Of a stretch of 36,586 nucleotides of DNA, positions 23,016-36,475 are shown in pieces. The first letter of the stretch is position 1. Every line of letters starts with the position of its first letter. The notes below the pieces were generated by a model. The model was not told the origin of the DNA. It did no database searches and saw nothing but the letters and a program-made list of their open reading frames with translations. The stretch is from a virus: the IMG/VR virus record IMGVR_UViG_3300042453_004843, positions 1 to 36,586 of that record; one strand, 5' to 3'. Made by a program: the position numbers and the translations under genes.

Positions 23016-23348
23016 CTACTCCTGAAGGCGGCGGTCGCCGCGGATGATGCGCGCGGCCACAGCGGCGTGCGCGGGGGTGGGAGCGGGGATGCCGGGCGCC
23101 GCGGGCGGGGCCCACGGGCGGCGGGGCTCGGCAGGCTCTGGCGGTGGCGGGGCAGGCAGCGGGGCCGGCCGGCGCGCGGCCGGGTCGAGCCAGGGGCAGA
23201 CCTCGCGAGCGTAGCGGAGGGCGGCCTCCCGGTCGCCAGCCCGCTGCAGCGCCGCGATGCGGGCCTGCATGTCCTCGGCGGCCTCGGTGTCGGTGAAGAG
23301 CAGCTGTCTCCAGCGGTCCCACAGCGCGTCGTAGACGTCCCGTGCCAT
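23016..23348 (-). CDS. Hypothetical protein downstream of the replication gene
   Basis: A 110-residue protein from ATG 23348, overlapping the stop of the replication protein by one base. The N-terminal half is a helical domain (MARDVYDALWDRWRQLLFTD, AALQRAGDREAALRYAREVC), and the rest is Pro-rich with an Arg-rich end. By analogy with lambda P, which follows O, it might be a helicase loader, but no AAA+ motif is visible and it is short. A replication accessory role is only inferred from its place. Confidence 0.6.
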   Translation of the reverse strand: MARDVYDALWDRWRQLLFTDTEAAEDMQARIAALQRAGDREAALRYAREVCPWLDPAARRPAPLPAPPPPEPAEPRRPWAPPAAPGIPAPTPAHAAVAARIIRGDRRLQE

Positions 23349-24787
23349 CAGGTCACCTCCGCAGCGAGCCGGGCCTCGAGGTGCACAAGGGCCAGCGCGA
23401 TGGCGTCGAGCTGCTGCTGCGCGACCACGCGGCGGTTCTGCGCCGCTGCCACCTCGCGGGCCGCGGGCCCGAAGGGCGGGCCGCCCGCGCGCCGCTCGGC
23501 AGCTTGCGCCGCCTTGGCCTGCTCGTGCGCCGCGTTGGCAGCCTCGAGCTCGGCCAGCCACCCGTCCCGGGCCTCCGCAGCAGCGGCGCGGTCCTCGAGC
23601 AGCCGCTCACGCAGCGGCCGGACCGGCGCAGCAGGGGGCGGCGGCGGTGGTGCGGGCGGCGGCTCCGGCTCGGCGACCTCCTCCCACAGCAGCACGGCGG
23701 GCGCGGCAGCCTGCTCGGCGATCCACGCTTGCCGCTCGGCCTCCTCCTGCCGCTCCCGCTGCTCGCGGGCGGCCATCAGCGGGGTCACCACCTGCACCAC
23801 CGGGGCCTCGCCCCGCGGCTCAAGGTCGTGCTCGTGCGCGCCCTCCAGCCCGCGCCAGCTGCGGCGCTCGGCGTACTCCGGGTGCGCGAGCAGGGTGCTC
23901 AGGTCCCGCGTGTAGTCGGAGCCCGGCCGCCGCGCGTCCTCGGCGCGCAGCCACGCCGCTTCGGGCGAGCGCAGCATCCACGTCCAGCCGTCGACCACCT
24001 CCTGTGGGCTCTGCCGGGCCAGCGCGCGGCGCACGCGTGGGAGCCACGTGGTCGGCGACAGGGCGCGACCGCCGCGGTGGCGGTCGAGCCGCATGGCGTC
24101 GAGCCGGCGCAGCAGGTCCTCGGCGGCCTCCACCTCGCGGGCCGCCTTGGATGGGCGGGCAGGCTTGACCGGCTCCATCCCGCCACCGATGAGCGAGAGC
24201 TGGCCCGCGCCAGCGGGCTGGTTGCTCTCCGTGTCGGTGCCTGTGTCGGTGCCTGTGTCGGTGTCCTGTGTTCTTTGCGCGTGGGGAGGTCGGCTGGAGG
24301 TCGGCTGGAGGTCGGCTGGAGAACCGCTGGCGGAGCGCTGGAGATTGGCTGGAGGTCCGCTGGCGGACGGCTGGCGACCGGGGTGCATCACCACGCCGCT
24401 TTCGTCGCGAAAGCTGGAGGTCCGCTGGAGGTCCGCTGGAGATTGGCTGGCGGCCGGCTGGAGATTGGCTGGCGGAGCGCTGGAGGTTCGCTGGCGGTCG
24501 GCTGGCGGCCGCTGGTCAGGCTTGGCCGGGTCCGCCCACGCGGGCCGGTCGGCCATCGTCGAGCGCGCCGCGTGCTCGGTCCACGCCCAGCGGCGGCACA
24601 GCGCCGGGCGACCGGGGCGCATGTCGCGGCCGTTCATGCGGCTCAGGTCATCCCACCAGCGCAGGTCCATCAGTACCGCAGCTTCGGGCCACGGTGCGCC
24701 CGTGCTGGCGAGCGTGTCGGCGATGGATGGCCACCACGCGGCCTCCATCGGCACCCATCCAACGATGACGGGGGGGACGCGGGCCAT
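23348..24787 (-). CDS. Replication initiation protein (lambda O-like organiser)
   Basis: A 479-residue protein from ATG 24787. The N-terminal domain (VGWVPMEAAWWPSIADTL, MDLRWWDDLSRMNGRDMRPG, LCRRWAWTEHAA) looks like the winged-helix origin-binding part of phage O and DnaT-like proteins. A Ser/Gln/Pro-rich linker encoded by tandem 11-bp DNA repeats follows (residues ~90-165), then a C-terminal region with WLPRVRRALARQSPQEVV, a PEPPPAPPPPPP linker and a coiled coil that may load host helicase. No helicase or primase motif is present, so host factors are required. The repeats place the origin in the gene. Confidence 0.8.
   Translation of the reverse strand: MARVPPVIVGWVPMEAAWWPSIADTLASTGAPWPEAAVLMDLRWWDDLSRMNGRDMRPGRPALCRRWAWTEHAARSTMADRPAWADPAKPDQRPPADRQRTSSAPPANLQPAASQSPADLQRTSSFRDESGVVMHPGRQPSASGPPANLQRSASGSPADLQPTSSRPPHAQRTQDTDTGTDTGTDTESNQPAGAGQLSLIGGGMEPVKPARPSKAAREVEAAEDLLRRLDAMRLDRHRGGRALSPTTWLPRVRRALARQSPQEVVDGWTWMLRSPEAAWLRAEDARRPGSDYTRDLSTLLAHPEYAERRSWRGLEGAHEHDLEPRGEAPVVQVVTPLMAAREQRERQEEAERQAWIAEQAAAPAVLLWEEVAEPEPPPAPPPPPPAAPVRPLRERLLEDRAAAAEARDGWLAELEAANAAHEQAKAAQAAERRAGGPPFGPAAREVAAAQNRRVVAQQQLDAIALALVHLEARLAAEVT
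24231..24266. repeat. Three 12-bp direct repeats in the replication gene
   Basis: GTGTCGGTGCCT occurs at 24231 and 24243, with a close third copy at 24255. In the protein it gives a Thr-Asp-Thr-Gly repeat (TDTGTDTGTDTE). It lies about 30 bases from the 11-bp array and may be part of the origin, or simple slippage in a linker. Confidence 0.8.
24294..24522. repeat. Iteron array: 18 copies of an 11-bp repeat, probable replication origin
   Basis: CTGG recurs every 11 bases at 24294, 24305, 24316, 24327, 24338, 24349, 24360 and 24371, then at 24414, 24425, 24436, 24447, 24458, 24469, 24480, 24491, 24502, and 24512. Units read CTGGAGGTCCG or CTGGCGGACGG and variants. Eleven bases is about one helical turn, so every copy faces the same side of the DNA. 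A 33-base gap holds a palindrome. Lambdoid phages also keep origin iterons inside the initiator gene, supporting an origin function. Confidence 0.75.
24398..24414. repeat. Palindrome between iteron blocks
   Basis: GCTTTCG and CGAAAGC are perfect 7-base arms around a TCG spacer, placed between the 8-copy and 10-copy iteron blocks. It is locally less G+C-rich and could be a binding site or an unwinding start, but this is inference. Confidence 0.6.
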
Positions 24788-25016: not shown

Positions 25017-25253
25017 CTACAGCGCCGCCGCCGTGGCGACGACGTGGACCTCGAGCTCCGGCCGCCACGACTCCCACACCACGAGCCGCGCCGCCCGGTC
25101 GAGCTGGCGGAGCGCCGGGGTGCTGCGCTCGCGCGCGGCGAGGGCCAGGTCGACGACGTCGGCGAGCTCCTCCGGCGACACGCGGCGGCGCAGGGCGCCC
25201 AGCCGAGGCCGGGCGTAGGCAAGCAGGTGCGCGCGGAGGGCGGGCGGGCTCAC
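25017..25253 (-). CDS. Small hypothetical helical protein
   Basis: A 78-residue protein, GTG start coupled to the methyltransferase-like gene stop. It has an Arg/Ala/Leu helix (LRAHLLAYARPRLGALRRR), a VSPEELADVVDLALAARER segment and an end with VVWESWRPELEVHVV. The pattern is soluble and helical, with no known domain. It is the last gene before the leader of the replication gene. Confidence 0.6.
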   Translation of the reverse strand: MSPPALRAHLLAYARPRLGALRRRVSPEELADVVDLALAARERSTPALRQLDRAARLVVWESWRPELEVHVVATAAAL

Positions 25254-25822
25254 GGGGTGCTCCGGGCGGCGCGGGCCATGCCGAGCAGCAGGTCGGCGAA
25301 GGCTGGCGGGGTTTGCCGTCGCCGCGGGTCGGAGCTGGACAGCAGCTCGATGCGGCCCGCGGCGCCCGAGGGGCCCCAGCGCAGCGGGGGAGGCGGGGCC
25401 TCGCCGACGTAGTAGAGCAGGGTCGGCTTGGGGCAGCCGTGCCCATAGTGGCCCTGCTCAACCTGGCAGGCCCAGCCGGGGCGGTAGAGCGTGCGTGCCC
25501 AGCCGCGGGCCGGGGCAGGGGGCAGCCCGAAGGCGGGCCAAGCGGCAGACCCCACGGGGTGCTCCAGCACGCCGCCCCAGCGCTCGACTGCGGCGAGGGC
25601 AGCGGCGAAACAGCCGCCGTCCTCGCCGATGCCGGGACGCCCGGGGACCGCCGCCCAGATGTGGGCGAGCCGCGACCACCGCTCGCACGGCGGGTGCGCC
25701 ACGACGGGCAGCGGGCCAGCGTAGAGGCGGGCGTCGCGGTCCTCGGGCCACAGGTCGACGCCGGGGCGGTCGTAGATGCCGCCCCGGTCGACGTAGAGGG
25801 CGGCGACGGTCGGCGCGCTCAC
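25250..25822 (-). CDS. DNA cytosine methyltransferase-like phage protein (PPC motif)
   Basis: A 190-residue protein from GTG 25822. The segment VAHPPCERWSRLA has the PC dipeptide of C5-methyltransferases, then GGCFAAALAAVERWGGVLEH with P-V-G-S, a GHGCPKPTLLYYVG segment, and RQTPPAFADLLLG near the end. The order hPPCxxW ... GGvLEHP ... kpTlLY ... TPxxFA is one I know from unnamed phage proteins related to Dcm-like enzymes. It lacks a clear AdoMet-binding FxGxG loop at its N-terminus, so activity is uncertain. Confidence 0.6.
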   Translation of the reverse strand: MSAPTVAALYVDRGGIYDRPGVDLWPEDRDARLYAGPLPVVAHPPCERWSRLAHIWAAVPGRPGIGEDGGCFAAALAAVERWGGVLEHPVGSAAWPAFGLPPAPARGWARTLYRPGWACQVEQGHYGHGCPKPTLLYYVGEAPPPPLRWGPSGAAGRIELLSSSDPRRRQTPPAFADLLLGMARAARSTP

Positions 25823-26133
25823 GGGGTGAGCAGCACGACGCGCACGAGGGTCGCGGGCGTGCCGTAGAGAGCGAGGTCGCCCTCGGGGGTGAGCGCCCAG
25901 GCGCGCGGCTCGCACCCGCCGCCGCCGGGCTCGCCGGGGCCGGTGCAGGCGTGGACGCTGACCACGTCGCCGGGGGGCAGCGGGAGGGTGGGCGCCGGCA
26001 GGGTGGGGTCGACGACGACGGAGATCTCCACCACCTCGAGGGTGGAGCCGCTGGCGACCACCTCGGCGGCGGTGTCGGAGGCTGCGGCGGCGCAGGCGGA
26101 GAGGAGGAGGGCGAGCAGGTGCGAGCGGGTCAT
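25819..26133 (-). CDS. Putative lipoprotein of the early region
   Basis: A 104-residue protein beginning MTRSHLLALLLSACAAA. A basic N-region, a short hydrophobic core and the lipobox LSAC fit lipoprotein processing at Cys14. The rest has a Pro-rich strand (DPTLPAPTLPLPPGDVV) and a second Cys pair. Phage lipoproteins include Rz1-type spanins and superinfection-exclusion proteins. Its position among early genes, away from the amidase, favours the second, but this is inference. Confidence 0.55.
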   Translation of the reverse strand: MTRSHLLALLLSACAAAASDTAAEVVASGSTLEVVEISVVVDPTLPAPTLPLPPGDVVSVHACTGPGEPGGGGCEPRAWALTPEGDLALYGTPATLVRVVLLTP

Positions 26134-30316: not shown

Positions 30317-31395
30317 CCTGCCCCCTCTTCGTCGAACTCTGCGCCGGGACCGCCGCCGTCTCCCTCCGCCTCCACCGCGACGGCGCCCGGCCGCCCGTGT
30401 CCCGCATGGGCGCGAAGACCGGCTATGCCGACACCATCCTCCGCGTGCTCGGCCTCGTCCCCGGCCAGCGCGCCGCGGCGTACCTGTGGTGCGAGCCCGA
30501 CCCCGGCGTGCGGCTGCTGTTGGAGGCGTACCGCGACGGGGCGCTGGCCCGCGCCGCCGCGGCCATCATCCGGTCGTGGGCCGGCGAAGACCCGCGCGCG
30601 CTGTGGGAGCGGCTGCGGGCGGAGGGGCCGCCGCGGTGCCCGGATGGGGGTGTGGAGGCGGGGGAGGTGGCGCGGTGGGTCTGGACATGGGGCCGGTCCT
30701 ACAACACCAAGGGCCCCGACGCAGGCTTCTTGCCGTCGGAGTCGAGCACGGGGACGCCGGTCTGGAACGCGCACCCGCCCGAGTACTTCGCCGATGCCGT
30801 GCACCGCGTGCCCACCCTCCCCGCCGCCATCGCTCCCGACGCCCGGCAGGTCGACCCGCGGGAGGTGGCGCGCGTGCTCCAAATCATCGCCAGCAACGAG
30901 CTAATCAACGTGGCATGGTCGGACGCCCACAACGCATGGCGAAACACCGGCATCGGTGGGACCACGTTCGGCGGACCCATCGGGTACGGCGGCGACCGCG
31001 TGCCCGGGAAGCTTGAAGCCTTGCCCGTGCCGCTCCCCGCCCTCATCCACCCCGACGCCCGCGCCGTCGACCCGGGCCCCGCCCTGCCGCCCGGCACGGT
31101 GGTTTATGCAGACCCACCCTACCTCAACACCACCGGCTACGCCGCAGACCTGCCGCGCGCCGATGTGGTCGCCCTCGCCCGGCGCTGGGCCGCCGCGGGC
31201 GCCACGGTCTGCGTCAGCGAGGCCGAGGCCATCCCCGAGCTTGTGGCTGAGGGGTGGTGGCAGGTGCGGATCGACGGGGAGAGGGTGGGGCAGAAGCGCA
31301 CGTTCAGCCGGCAGCAGGCGGAGTGGCTGACGTTGAACCGGGCGCCCGCGTGGGTGCCGAGCGTGCAAGGCGCGCTGTTTGGGGGTGCCCGATGA
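30313..31395 (+). CDS. DNA adenine N6-methylase (D12 / Dam-like)
   Basis: A 360-residue protein in ATGA overlap. The AdoMet-binding motif FVELCAGTAAVSL (residues 6-18) comes first, then SRMGAKTGYADTIL (30-43), the Dam-type substrate-channel motif, and the catalytic DPPY at 267-270 in VVYADPPYLNTTGY. The order I...IV is that of D12-class adenine methylases. An inserted region between them is rich in loops. It likely protects phage DNA from host restriction. The gene sits directly before terL. Confidence 0.88.
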   Translation: MTCPLFVELCAGTAAVSLRLHRDGARPPVSRMGAKTGYADTILRVLGLVPGQRAAAYLWCEPDPGVRLLLEAYRDGALARAAAAIIRSWAGEDPRALWERLRAEGPPRCPDGGVEAGEVARWVWTWGRSYNTKGPDAGFLPSESSTGTPVWNAHPPEYFADAVHRVPTLPAAIAPDARQVDPREVARVLQIIASNELINVAWSDAHNAWRNTGIGGTTFGGPIGYGGDRVPGKLEALPVPLPALIHPDARAVDPGPALPPGTVVYADPPYLNTTGYAADLPRADVVALARRWAAAGATVCVSEAEAIPELVAEGWWQVRIDGERVGQKRTFSRQQAEWLTLNRAPAWVPSVQGALFGGAR

Positions 31396-33137
31396 CCGGC
31401 CCCCTCATCGGCGCCAGCGGCCACACCACCGCGGCGTGGCTCGCCGCCGTCGCCGCCGAGCCGGCCCGCCTGCGCCTGCCGCTGCTGCGGGACGGGTGCT
31501 GGCGCGACCCGCTGCTGTGGGCGCGGCTGGTCTACCCGGAGGTGGTGCGGGCGGAGTTCTCGCCGCTGCACCACGAGATCGGCGGGTGGTTCGCCGGCCT
31601 GCCCGAGCCGGCCGAGCGGGCGGGGCAGAGCCCGCGGCGGCGCGTCGTGACCGGGCCCAGAGGCGGGGCGAAGACGTCGCTGCTGCGGGCCGGGCTGCTG
31701 CACCGGCTGCTGCACCGGCTGGAGCCCTACGCCGTGGTGATCGGCCCCGAGGCGACGCACGTCGACGCCGAGGTAGGCACGCTGCGGGGCCTCGCCGATG
31801 CGACGGAGCGGCCGCTGCTGCGCTTGCTCCACGGGGCGCGCGAGTGGCGGGGCAATCTCAGCGAGGTGCAGCTGGTCGGCGGCGGGGGCGTCGTGCACCT
31901 GTCTGCGCGCGCGCTCAGCGGCACCATCCGGGGGCTCAACCGGGATGGCCGCCGGCCGACGTTGGTCATCCTCGACGACGTGGAGAAGCCCGAGCACCTC
32001 GACTCGCCGAGCACGCGGGCCCGGATGCGCGCCCGCTTGAGCGACGACATCGGCAACCTCGGGCCGCCGGAGGGCGGGCTGGCCTGCATCTACGGCGCGA
32101 CGGACCTCGGGGAGGGCTCGCTGCCCTCGCACGCCGAGCAGGAGCTGGGCTGGGACCGCACAACGCTCCCGGCCGTGCTGGCGTGGCCGGAGGGGCTGGG
32201 GGAGGGCGTGGACCGGCCCGGCAGCCGATGGGAGGAGTGCCGGCGGCTCTACCTCGACCGGACGGACCCGCGGCGGCGGGCGACGGCGAGGGCCTTCTAC
32301 GACGACCACCGGGGCGAGATGGACCGCGGGGCCCGCGTGCTGCACCCGGTCTACCAGCCGCTGTGGTCGCTGGTGGAGCGGCTGTGGGACTCGGGGCGGG
32401 TCGGCTTCTTCCGCGACTACCAGCAGAAGCCTCTCAGCGGCGACGCCGGGGTTTTCGCGACGCACCACATCCGGCGGGCCCACCGCCGCGAGGATGAGGC
32501 AGGGCTGCCGGTCGGGTGGCGCTCGCACGACGGGCTCGAGGTGTCGCTGGCGGACTGCGACGTCGGGCTATGGCTGGACCCCAGGAACAGCCACAACGTC
32601 GACCGCAACGACTTCTCCGGCCTCGCCGTGGTCGCGGTCCACCGCCGGACGCAGCTCGCCGCGGTCCTCGAGCACTGCGCCGTCCGCGAGGCCCCGGCGC
32701 AGTCGGTGGCGCGGTTGTGGGGGTTGTGGGAGCGCTACTCGCGCTGGGCGCCGCGCGTGGGCGCCGAGGCGAACCAGGGCGGGGCGCTGCTGCAGGACGA
32801 ATGGAGCCGCCTGCAGCGGGAGGCGACCAAGGCCCGCCGGCCCAGCGCGCCGCCGCTCGGGCTGGCGCACACGACCGGCGCCAAGGCCCCGCGCCTGGCG
32901 AGCCTCGGGCTGCCGCTGGAGACGGGGCAGCTGCAGCTCTGCGACGTCGACGCTGGCGTGCTGCCGGGGGAGGTGTCGCGCTTGCGCCTCGACGCGCAGC
33001 TCGCAGGCTTCCCGCGGGCATCGGTGCACGACGACGGGCTCGACGCGGTGGAGCGGGCCTATGCGCTGGCGCGGGAGGCGGGCGAGGTGGGTGTCAGCGG
33101 CGCGGTTTTGGCGGGGCTCGCAGATTTGTTGCGGTAG
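31392..33137 (+). CDS. terL: Terminase large subunit
   Basis: A 581-residue protein, the ATP-driven packaging motor. Walker A is TGPRGGAKTS (residues 87-96), Walker B LVILDD (191-196), and the nuclease part shows WLDPRNSHNVDRNDFSG (Asp396, Asp407) and, near residue 545, VHDDGLDAVERAY, the closing acidic pair of the RNase H-like fold. The length and order fit phage terminases. It is on the opposite strand from the portal and some 11 kb from it, an unusual split of packaging genes. Confidence 0.92.
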   Translation: MTGPLIGASGHTTAAWLAAVAAEPARLRLPLLRDGCWRDPLLWARLVYPEVVRAEFSPLHHEIGGWFAGLPEPAERAGQSPRRRVVTGPRGGAKTSLLRAGLLHRLLHRLEPYAVVIGPEATHVDAEVGTLRGLADATERPLLRLLHGAREWRGNLSEVQLVGGGGVVHLSARALSGTIRGLNRDGRRPTLVILDDVEKPEHLDSPSTRARMRARLSDDIGNLGPPEGGLACIYGATDLGEGSLPSHAEQELGWDRTTLPAVLAWPEGLGEGVDRPGSRWEECRRLYLDRTDPRRRATARAFYDDHRGEMDRGARVLHPVYQPLWSLVERLWDSGRVGFFRDYQQKPLSGDAGVFATHHIRRAHRREDEAGLPVGWRSHDGLEVSLADCDVGLWLDPRNSHNVDRNDFSGLAVVAVHRRTQLAAVLEHCAVREAPAQSVARLWGLWERYSRWAPRVGAEANQGGALLQDEWSRLQREATKARRPSAPPLGLAHTTGAKAPRLASLGLPLETGQLQLCDVDAGVLPGEVSRLRLDAQLAGFPRASVHDDGLDAVERAYALAREAGEVGVSGAVLAGLADLLR

Positions 33138-33912: not shown

Positions 33913-34283
33913 GCGCGCTTGACCTGAAGCCCTGCCCGTTCTGCGGCAAGCCGGCGGAACTGACCGAAAACGAGTACAGCGCGCCGATGGTTGCGTGCGA
34001 GTGGTGTTTGGCGCGGACCTGCAGTCACAGCGAGAGTCTGGCCATTGACAAGTGGAACCGCCGACCCGGCGAGGACGCCCTGCGCGCCCGCGCCGAGGCC
34101 GCCGAGGCCGCGCTGGCCACCGCGCGGGCGGAGGGGGCGGCGGCTGAGCGGGCGGCGGTGGTGGCGTGGCTGCGCCGCACCGCAGTGGACATCTCACCGA
34201 TCGGACTCCCGGACGGCGAGCTGACATGCATCACCGACGACATCGAGGAAGGGCGGCACGTCCGCCCCGTGGAGGGCGCATGA
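33909..34283 (+). CDS. Lar/Ea22-like zinc-finger and coiled-coil protein (right allele)
   Basis: A complete 124-residue protein. LKPCPFCGKPAEL and the later CEWCLARTC form a CPFCG...CxxC zinc ribbon like that of Lar and related phage proteins that lessen restriction. An Ala/Glu coiled coil follows (EGAAAERAAVVAW), and the end is GRHVRPVEGA. The left copy, opened at the window edge, has the same zinc half and a longer coiled coil. Lar-like function is suggested by the ribbon only. Confidence 0.72.
   Translation: MSALDLKPCPFCGKPAELTENEYSAPMVACEWCLARTCSHSESLAIDKWNRRPGEDALRARAEAAEAALATARAEGAAAERAAVVAWLRRTAVDISPIGLPDGELTCITDDIEEGRHVRPVEGA
33995..34087 (+). repeat. 93-bp exact terminal repeat, right copy
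   Basis: Identical to bases 1-93. If the sequence is closed here, the genome unit is 33,994 bases. After it the two copies differ, first by one base and then by a large insertion in the left allele. Confidence 0.85.
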
Positions 34284-34663
34284 CCGCCGCCGACCGCTAC
34301 TTTGCCGCCTGCCATGCCCTCAACCGCGACGAATGGGCGCCCGGGATGCGGTGGCTCCGCTGGGCGCCCGGCACGGCACGGCACCTGCAGATCGCCGGGC
34401 GCGTGCCCGACGGGCCGGACATGCACGACTATGACCGTGAGCACGTCGTGCCCGACTTCGCCGACCCCGCGACCGTCGGTGTGTTGCTCGCCGCCGTGCG
34501 CGAGGCGTGGGCGTCACCGACGCTGTTCGCCCGGCCGACCGCCTCGGGGTGGACCGTCATGCGCGGGCGCGGCATGGGCAAGCTGAGCGACGGCCTCACC
34601 GAAGCCGACGCCCTCATCGCCGCCCTCGAAGCCGCCGCCGCGCGCCGAGGGGGCCAGCCATGA
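34280..34663 (+). CDS. Hypothetical accessory protein (right allele of 550-933)
   Basis: A 127-residue protein, the same length as its left counterpart. It starts MTAADRYFAACHALNRDEWA and contains DPATVGVLLAAVREAW and LTEADALIAALEAAAARRGG. The middle (HLQIAGRVPDGPDMHDYD) differs from the left copy. No domain is recognised. ATGA overlaps at both ends. Confidence 0.75.
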   Translation: MTAADRYFAACHALNRDEWAPGMRWLRWAPGTARHLQIAGRVPDGPDMHDYDREHVVPDFADPATVGVLLAAVREAWASPTLFARPTASGWTVMRGRGMGKLSDGLTEADALIAALEAAAARRGGQP

Positions 34664-34893
34664 GCTGCCCCTGGCACCACCGCCGCCTGCGGGTCCGCCC
34701 CGGCGGGCGGCGCACGTCGGCGGCCGCGCGGCTGCGGGCGCACGTGCTCGCGCTCGGGGCGTGGGGGGCCGACTGGGACTGCGGCGTGGCGCTGCACCCG
34801 ACGGCGCTGCTGAGCCCCCTCATGGCCACCGTGCTGCGGACGCGGCTGGCGAAGCGGCTCGGCTGGGCCGCGGCTGCGCGGAGGTGGGCGTGA
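34660..34893 (+). CDS. Hypothetical basic protein (right allele of 1292-1627)
   Basis: A 77-residue protein beginning MSCPWHHRRLRVRPGGR. The first 36 residues nearly match the left protein, the tail AAAARRWA is shared, and the middle is shorter (VALHPTALLSPLMATVLRTR). Arg/Trp-rich; function unknown. A conserved N-terminus may be a targeting or RNA-binding element, but this is only an inference from the conservation pattern. Confidence 0.7.
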   Translation: MSCPWHHRRLRVRPGGRRTSAAARLRAHVLALGAWGADWDCGVALHPTALLSPLMATVLRTRLAKRLGWAAAARRWA

Positions 34894-34964
34894 GGGTTGA
34901 GGCGCCCGGCCGTGGTGGCTGGGCGCAGGTTGCGATGGCGCCGAGGGGCGCGAGGGAGGGTGTG

Positions 34965-35267
34965 ATGTGCAGCGAGGAAGGCAGCTACGTTTCTCTGAAG
35001 TTCGGCACGCTGAAAAGTTGGGACGTCAAGACTGGCAAAGGGCGCGACCTGCTCGCTAAATGGGCCGCGCTCGGGTACGCCATGAGCACCTTTGACCAGA
35101 AGGACACGCCAGAGCAGGTTGACCTGATGTGCGCCCTCATCGATGAGGTGGACGCGGTCTGGCTCGATTGGGACGGCGCTGCGCCAACAAAGGAGGATGC
35201 CAAGAAGTATCTGCGCGAGTACCCGCGGCCGTGGTGGCCTGACACCGCCCGAAACTCGCCGCGGTAG
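34965..35267 (+). CDS. Hypothetical protein of the right allele
   Basis: A 100-residue protein; ATG 34965 with GGGAGG 5 bases upstream (GTG 34890 overlaps the previous stop and would add 25 residues). The core SYVSLKFGTLKSWDVKTGKG, WAALGYAMSTFDQ and LMCALIDEVDAVWLDWDG resembles small hypothetical phage proteins with a conserved KFGTLKSWD start. It takes the place of the unrelated 1675 gene in the left allele. Confidence 0.72.
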   Translation: MCSEEGSYVSLKFGTLKSWDVKTGKGRDLLAKWAALGYAMSTFDQKDTPEQVDLMCALIDEVDAVWLDWDGAAPTKEDAKKYLREYPRPWWPDTARNSPR

Positions 35268-35403
35268 GATGTCCATGACCGCCACCTGCCCCGTCTGCGG
35301 CCGCTGCTTCCGCAGCCCCGGGGACGCCCGTGGTGCCCGACGTTGGGCGCGGGCGGGCGGCGAGGACACACAGGAGCGCCGGCAGGACCGGCAAGGAGGA
35401 CCG

Positions 35404-35730
35404 ATGACCAAAGCGCAAACCCTCCCGGGGCTGACCCTACCCCCGGCGACACAGCGCAAGACCGCCCGCGACCGTCTGCAAGCCGCGCTTGGGGCCCGGT
35501 GGGACGTCGCCACCGACCCGTCGGAGGCGTCCGGCCGGGGGCTGCTGTTCAGCTACGACGAAGGCGAGTTCATCTTCAACGCCATCGCCTACGGCAGCCC
35601 GCGGGCGTGGACCCTGTGGGATGGGCGCGGCGACACCATCGGGGTGGGGCTGGGCGAGGCCGGCATGGTGCCGGTTCTGCGCGGGTTCGTGGGTGAGGAA
35701 GGGGCCGCGGTTGCGGCGGAGGAGACGTGA
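35404..35730 (+). CDS. Hypothetical protein; upstream Cys-motif extension possible
   Basis: A 108-residue protein from ATG 35404, chosen for its strong site AAGGAGG 5 bases upstream. The same frame is open back to ATG 35269/35275 and would add MSMTATCPVCGRCFRSPGD, a CPVCxxC zinc-like motif, so a longer form or a fused leader peptide is possible. The core has LFSYDEGEFIFNAIAYGS and WDGRGDTIGVGLGEAG. No known family. Confidence 0.6.
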   Translation: MTKAQTLPGLTLPPATQRKTARDRLQAALGARWDVATDPSEASGRGLLFSYDEGEFIFNAIAYGSPRAWTLWDGRGDTIGVGLGEAGMVPVLRGFVGEEGAAVAAEET

Positions 35731-36113
35731 TGGGAACGCGAGCGGACTTCTGGATCGACGACGATGGGCGCATGGAATGGCTCGGGTCGGTGTGCTTCGA
35801 CGGCTACGAGTGGCAGGAGTCGCCGGACTGCGCCCTGATGCGCGCGGATGACGCGCCGAGCTTCCGCCGGGCGGTCACTGCGGCGCTCGAAGGGCGCTCC
35901 CGGCGGTCGGTCGCCATGCCCGAGGACGGCTGGCCGTGGCCGTGGCCCGACTCCAACACCACCGACTACGCCTATGTGCTGCGTGCCGACATTGTCGAGG
36001 TGTACGGCTTCGGCCGGCTGGTCACCGGCGTCGACGATGACGGCGAAGAGCAGCGGGAGGCGCAGAAGGACAACCGCTGGCCGACGATGGCCTTGGGGCA
36101 GCGCCAGACGTAG
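35730..36113 (+). CDS. MGTRADFW-type conserved phage protein
   Basis: A 127-residue protein from ATG 35730 (TGATG with the previous stop; GTG 35727 is an alternative). It starts MGTRADFWIDDDGRMEWLGS, matching a hypothetical protein type I recall from phages and bacteria with a MGTRADFYxGRG...EWLGSxxxDGY start. Then come DAPSFRRAVTAALEG, WPWPWPDSNTTDYAYVL and a basic polar end. Conserved but of unknown function. Confidence 0.7.
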   Translation: MGTRADFWIDDDGRMEWLGSVCFDGYEWQESPDCALMRADDAPSFRRAVTAALEGRSRRSVAMPEDGWPWPWPDSNTTDYAYVLRADIVEVYGFGRLVTGVDDDGEEQREAQKDNRWPTMALGQRQT

Positions 36114-36199
36114 ACCCCTGTCACCGCGTGAAATCCCGGCCACCCCGCCGCGCGGTAGACTCCGGGCAGGCTCCCGTCACCCCTCCCGGCGGTCGCGGC
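36114..36199 (+). promoter_or_regulatory. Conserved leader with TAGACT box (right copy)
   Basis: Nearly identical to 1948-2032, with the same CACCGCGTGAAATCCC and GGTAGACTCCGGGCAG parts, although the genes before it differ. It most likely controls the next gene's expression. Confidence 0.4.
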
Positions 36200-36475
36200 G
36201 TGCCCGGGGGGAGCGTGACCGACACCCGCAGGCAGGCCCTCCTCCTCGCGCTGGCCGCCGCGCGCGGCTACCTGCGGGGGCTGACCTTCCCGCCGCCGCT
36301 GGCACCGCCCGTGCCGCCGCTGGTCGGGGCTCGGGCGGTGGCGGTCCACGAAGCCCTCGGCCTGCTACTGGCGGCCGGGGCGGTGCGGGACGGCTGGGCG
36401 TGGTGGGCGCTGGTCAGGGTTGTGTGGGCGGCGGGGCGGCTGTATGAGCGGGCCCACGGGCCGGGCCAGCCCTGA
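36200..36475 (+). CDS. Hypothetical protein, GTG start (right allele of 2033-2347)
   Basis: A 91-residue protein from GTG 36200 (GTG 36215 possible). The first 28 residues equal those of the left copy; the centre (LTFPPPLAPPVPPLVGA) is Pro-rich and different; WAAGRLYER closes as in the left. The stop lies inside a palindrome shared with the convergent gene. Confidence 0.65.
   Translation: MPGGSVTDTRRQALLLALAAARGYLRGLTFPPPLAPPVPPLVGARAVAVHEALGLLLAAGAVRDGWAWWALVRVVWAAGRLYERAHGPGQP

Follow-up and report, generated by a model that had tools for sequence, protein, structure and literature searches.

An array of 18 short direct repeats, set in the coding region of a phage replication initiator gene, is very probably the site at which replication of this phage starts. 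The array lies in a viral record (IMG/VR record IMGVR_UViG_3300042453_004843) whose full 36,586 bases, referred to here as the window, hold a phage gene set with a large terminase, a portal protein, a head protease, an Erf-like annealing protein and a RusA-like resolvase. The array itself, its conservation at the DNA level, the fixed spacing of its parts, a motif at its end, an adjacent tract of unusual composition and the placement of the array between two conserved protein domains can all be read directly from the DNA and its relatives. On these grounds, we put at roughly 0.85 the probability that the array is an origin located in the linker of its own initiator gene, at which binding of a helix-turn-helix (HTH) domain, assembly in two blocks, opening of the tract and recruitment of the helicase would occur.

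On the plus strand, CTGG occurs 18 times between 24294 and 24515, in a block of 8 (starts at 24294, 24305 ... 24371) and a block of 10 (starts at 24414, 24425 ... 24512) with 11-bp steps. An earlier note on this DNA had given these copy and block numbers correctly, together with exact 11-base steps throughout; one step, the final one (24502 to 24512), is 10 bp, and all others within the blocks are 11. Runs of CTGG at 11-bp steps reach a length of 9 in the array versus 1 elsewhere in the window, and did not exceed 3 in first-order Markov simulations of the window (n=200). Tandem Repeats Finder returns both arrays as well, and scanning the whole 36,586-base record for four CTGG at 11-bp steps revealed no second array outside this one. 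Read in the sense of the initiator gene, which is encoded on the minus strand, the repeat is CCAGC. The gene-proximal block A (24407..24516, minus strand) contains 10 CCAGC copies at 11 bp, with the single step of 10, and the gene-distal block B (24287..24374, minus strand) contains 8 copies at 11 bp. Past the last full 11-bp unit, the two are separated by a 32-bp spacer (24375..24406, minus strand), rather than by the 33 bases first reported, such that the distance from CCAG to CCAG across it is exactly 43 bp. The palindrome noticed at this location, GCTTTCG-TCG-CGAAAGC (24398..24414, without strand), does exist and overlaps the last block-A unit and the spacer; it is missing from the spacers of relatives and was rejected as a conserved element. 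No Rfam elements were found.

Block B is followed in register by a terminal unit, CCCCACGCGCA (24276..24286, minus strand), for which the end contexts of 15 family members give the consensus CCMCACGCGCG. Directly beyond it lies an A/C-rich tract without any T on the sense strand (24226..24275, minus strand), a candidate unwinding element, which is 40% A+T in a 75% GC genome and holds a 12-bp tandem repeat. Compared with all sampled 45-bp stretches, its excess of A over T is at the extreme (fraction 0.0000), and its A+T content is in the top 3%. GC skew has no minimum at the array and gives the origin reading no support.

The gene that harbors the array (23348..24787, minus strand, ATG at 24787) encodes 479 amino acids, as established by its open reading frame and translation and by 14 distinct homologues of its N-terminal domain. 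This domain (residues 1-85, 24533..24787, minus strand) is all-helical in an AlphaFold2 model with a pLDDT of 88, in which helices 60-67 and 71-79 form a helix-turn-helix at about residues 58-82. Beyond the array, a helical C-terminal domain that is conserved in the clade (residues ~214-317, 23837..24148, minus strand) was delimited by AlphaFold2 and alignment, with a mean pLDDT of 79 over a 151-residue construct and higher values across most of the helical core. The array is thus flanked by an HTH-like N-terminal and a helical C-terminal domain. For the window protein itself, there is no match to any Pfam or PHROG family, and Foldseek found nothing significant for either domain. Using hhalign, the HTH region aligns with DnaD-like phage initiators over 25 columns only (probability 84%, E 7.9e-6). 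One clade member matches phrog_678 ("replication initiation O-like") at 1.5e-6, relatives also match phrog_19658 (1.4e-4), the matched PHROGs include "replication initiation protein", and a DnaD-like match occurs in one relative only and is weak (0.0082). No helicase loader was identified in the subset of window ORFs that was scanned. The ORF next upstream of the initiator gene (25250-25915, minus strand) matches phrog_12600, a family of unknown function, at 5e-47. At the ends of the window, positions 1-2116 and 33995-36283 have several segments in common that are 81-98% identical and in the same order with variable spacing, which reflects either duplication of a gene cassette or an assembly in which divergent strains contributed overlapping ends.

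Single-protein searches of viral contigs, genome contigs and INPHARED phages yielded no relatives of the window protein. When viral contigs were scanned for six CTGG spaced at 11 bp, 71 loci were returned, four of which (L015, L063, L061 and L021) encode homologues of the N-terminal domain, and an alignment of these four used as the query added ten more distinct relatives, detected solely through protein similarity. A genome-contig search with the larger alignment found no relatives, and consequently, no host can be named. Relatives that kept the initiator and lacked the repeats would speak against an origin; instead, an array with an 11-bp period directly follows the N-terminal domain in 14/14 relatives, the weakest being that of L083 with three CCAGC copies. 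In L086/L087, the core of block A has become CCAACCG with retention of the period. The features that characterize the clade, all present in the window, are an N-terminal DLRWW...RPGRPAL..RWGWTD, an 11-bp CCAGC-type array, a gap of 43/44 bp and a CACGCGCG end unit. Comparing copy number between related phages, as the earlier note had proposed, revealed a range of 7 to 18 among scored members (18 in the window, 8 in L093, 7 in L080).

The distance between the blocks is kept, although the sequence of the spacer and the peptide it encodes diverge. Allowing the first boundary copy to be CCAA or CCAT in place of CCAG, and leaving out L086 because of its different core, the inter-block distance is 43 bp in the window, L082, L063, L084, L089, L090, L091, L093 and L021 and 44 bp in L080, L081, L085 and L088; L083 also reads 43 (spacings 11, 33 and 10). 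Positional conservation within the spacer is weak (information of 16.2 versus 7.8 bits in shuffles) and may stem from shared ancestry. Most members have the CCMCACGCGCG end unit, of which L083, L088, L089, L091 and L021 carry variants, and an A-rich, T-poor tract follows it on the sense strand in most, being weak or absent in 3/15 (L083, L093 and L089). The proposal of an intragenic iteron origin in an initiator gene is thus strongly supported by homologues that all keep the array and nearly all keep the gap and end motif, and the synonymous shuffles and PHROG matches described below agree with it.

In other replicons, long ordered arrays are also found as sites for repression, partition and copy control, and it is conceivable, if improbable, that the array is an autoregulatory or other site (operator, silencer, partition, copy-control) for the initiator or another phage protein and not an origin. 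Against this, multiple direct repeats sit inside the initiator's own reading frame and adjoin an A-rich, presumably easily melted tract, as in the lambda and SPP1 origins (PMC7466680, PMC6316719), and the record has no second such array. Furthermore, the association of such arrays is specifically with initiator genes, and it holds across families. Searching for five CCAAC at 11-bp steps yielded 53 loci, and in many of these the array falls within the linker of a winged-helix initiator that has NQPT-type repeats. The 88 distinct ORFs that span a CTGG- or CCAAC-type array had as their top PHROGs DnaD-like loaders, O-like and other replication initiators, primosomal proteins and families of unknown function, those matching a family being overwhelmingly replication initiators; for size-matched ORFs from the same loci, initiator and primosomal families were not among the top matches. 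At some array loci, the spanning ORF is missing or unrecognised, indicating that not every 11-bp array is of the initiator type. In 72/88 spanning ORFs, it is the sense strand that carries the CCA-type core, and coding constraint may fix the orientation of the array, as the opposite one would encode Trp/Leu-rich linkers.

The same period is found in initiators of named phages. In the DnaD-like and DUF1376 groups, among them P22-type gp18 and staphylococcal DnaD-like proteins, a lag of 11 is the best in 14/20 initiators, a sample selected by similarity to array-bearing proteins and in which related phages are not independent, versus 0/25 neighbouring genes (Fisher P = 2e-7). The cores of these arrays are several and unrelated. 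A 43-bp gap as a general trait of 11-bp arrays was rejected, as the array ORFs examined showed it in the window's clade only; L109 and L138, array ORFs of another type, have two blocks 66 bp apart. The best period is 7 bp in L163 and L167 (DUF1376-type initiators of Vibrio phages) and 12 bp in L172 (Listeria phage A006 gp43), and other unit lengths may therefore exist in related genes.

It is very unlikely that the array is mainly a protein feature, that is, a disordered repetitive linker grown by replication slippage, with the DNA repeat as its by-product. The array does encode an 11-residue Pro/Ala/Ser/Gln-rich repeat, the translation agreeing with the earlier suggestion that the repeats shift codon frame, and repeat number differs between relatives as slippage predicts. 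An 11-bp step, however, is not divisible by three and therefore places the core in each of the three codon phases, and CCAGC is about equally conserved in each, even though it specifies three different peptides. In 126 units picked by CCA, such that only the next G and C test conservation, these two bases are each conserved in 116/126 (92%), and the C is kept in 38/40, 35/41 and 43/45 units when at codon positions 1, 2 and 3, respectively. In each of the 15 clade genes, the top lag is 11, and permuting synonymous codons while keeping the protein weakens this signal in all of them, with P = 0.0033, the floor of 300 shuffles, in 11/15 and at most 0.02 in the rest. The shuffles show that the protein repeat does not account for the 11-bp period of the DNA and, together with the conservation in three phases, support selection on the DNA. 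Recent slippage would also not produce a near-invariant core beside freely varying positions within one unit, nor does it fit an inter-block distance that is constant in DNA and not in peptide. A single stretch of DNA appears to be both a protein linker and a candidate origin, with DNA spacing held while the peptide drifts.

A step unrelated to initiation, such as packaging or recombination, would suit a strongly ordered repeat in a phage with an Erf-like annealing protein and a RusA-like resolvase and is nevertheless most improbable, given that the array is within the initiator gene and away from the large terminase gene (31254-33137) and that its conservation tracks initiator families.

For an origin, binding, stoichiometry, melting and helicase recruitment can be pictured as follows. 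The HTH-containing N-terminal domain would bind the 11-bp units, most simply with one protomer per CCAGC core, and the protomers would line up head to tail in two cooperative blocks that make up one nucleoprotein complex. The blocks would be fixed 43 bp apart, or about four helical turns, across a spacer that is perhaps bent or bound. Assembly would stop at the CCMCACGCGCG/CACGCGCG unit, where the adjacent A-rich, T-poor tract could open, and the C-terminal domain might then bring in the replicative helicase or its loader. The idea that the period keeps all copies on one face of the helix is an approximation: at 10.5 bp/turn, 11-bp units rotate by ~17 degrees per copy, drifting ~154 degrees over ten copies, and consequently, the sites share one face only if the complex holds the DNA near 11 bp/turn. 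We speculate that DNA held in this way would itself favour unwinding.

Iterons of the lambda type are ~19 bp long and have an internal dyad. The window has no such iterons and, unlike lambda, carries 18 head-to-tail 11-bp units with an asymmetric CCAGC core and no dyad, split into two blocks that keep a fixed distance of 43 bp and finished by a distinct end unit; its protein has no detectable homology to O. In lambda and Stx phages, tandem sites occupy the middle of the initiator gene (O) and are flanked by an AT-rich tract, with a copy number that varies between phages, lambda having 4 iterons and Stx phages 6 (PMC7466680). The window resembles this lambdoid origin in having repeats inside the initiator gene beside an AT- or A-rich tract and a variable copy number. 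The contrast with lambda of more and shorter repeats holds, although short 11-bp repeats are common among phage initiators and the window is not exceptional in this respect. At SPP1 oriL in gene 38, the origin-binding protein gp38 binds direct repeats in its own gene, adjoined by an AT-rich unwinding element (PMC6316719), a similar placement of direct repeats next to a known or, in the window, candidate unwinding tract. SPP1 differs in having a second origin, oriR, whereas no second array was found in the window record. As described in PMC8965321, the replisome organizers of lactococcal P335 phages (TP901-1 ORF13, Tuc2009 Rep2009) bind direct repeats in their own gene that constitute the phage origin, a likeness to the window that concerns this description and not repeat length or spacing. 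A further likeness is to DnaD-like, O-like and DUF1376 initiators, such as those of Staphylococcus HSA84, Bacillus Pookie, Lactobacillus phiAT3 and Salmonella ST64T (gp18), in which the best linker period is 11 bp after the N-terminal domain. Most of the named-phage 11-bp linker arrays are significant against synonymous shuffles, and their cores, for instance GACAGAGAAAA and CAACAAATCAA, differ from that of the window.

Origins inside initiator genes are thus already known, and what differs in the window is the large number of short asymmetric 11-bp units, the fixed two-block layout and the end unit. The literature consulted on 11-bp intragenic phage iterons, a scope that did not extend to key older papers, contains precedents for intragenic origins and states no 11-bp rule, and the generality of this period across phage initiators is apparently unreported. 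As a tentative and rather doubtful extension, head-to-tail 11-bp linker arrays might serve winged-helix/HTH phage initiators from several families as a general code for the origin, in which one protomer per helical turn would form a polymer holding 11 bp/turn, so that its assembly underwinds the DNA toward the tract; the 43-bp gap in the window's clade would then divide the polymer and make room for a bend or a second factor. An 11-bp period in the linker of an initiator gene offers a sequence rule for locating candidate origins in uncultivated phage genomes that have no recognised replication protein. If its generality were true, a shared polymer-type mechanism would lie behind initiators that are now filed under separate family names.
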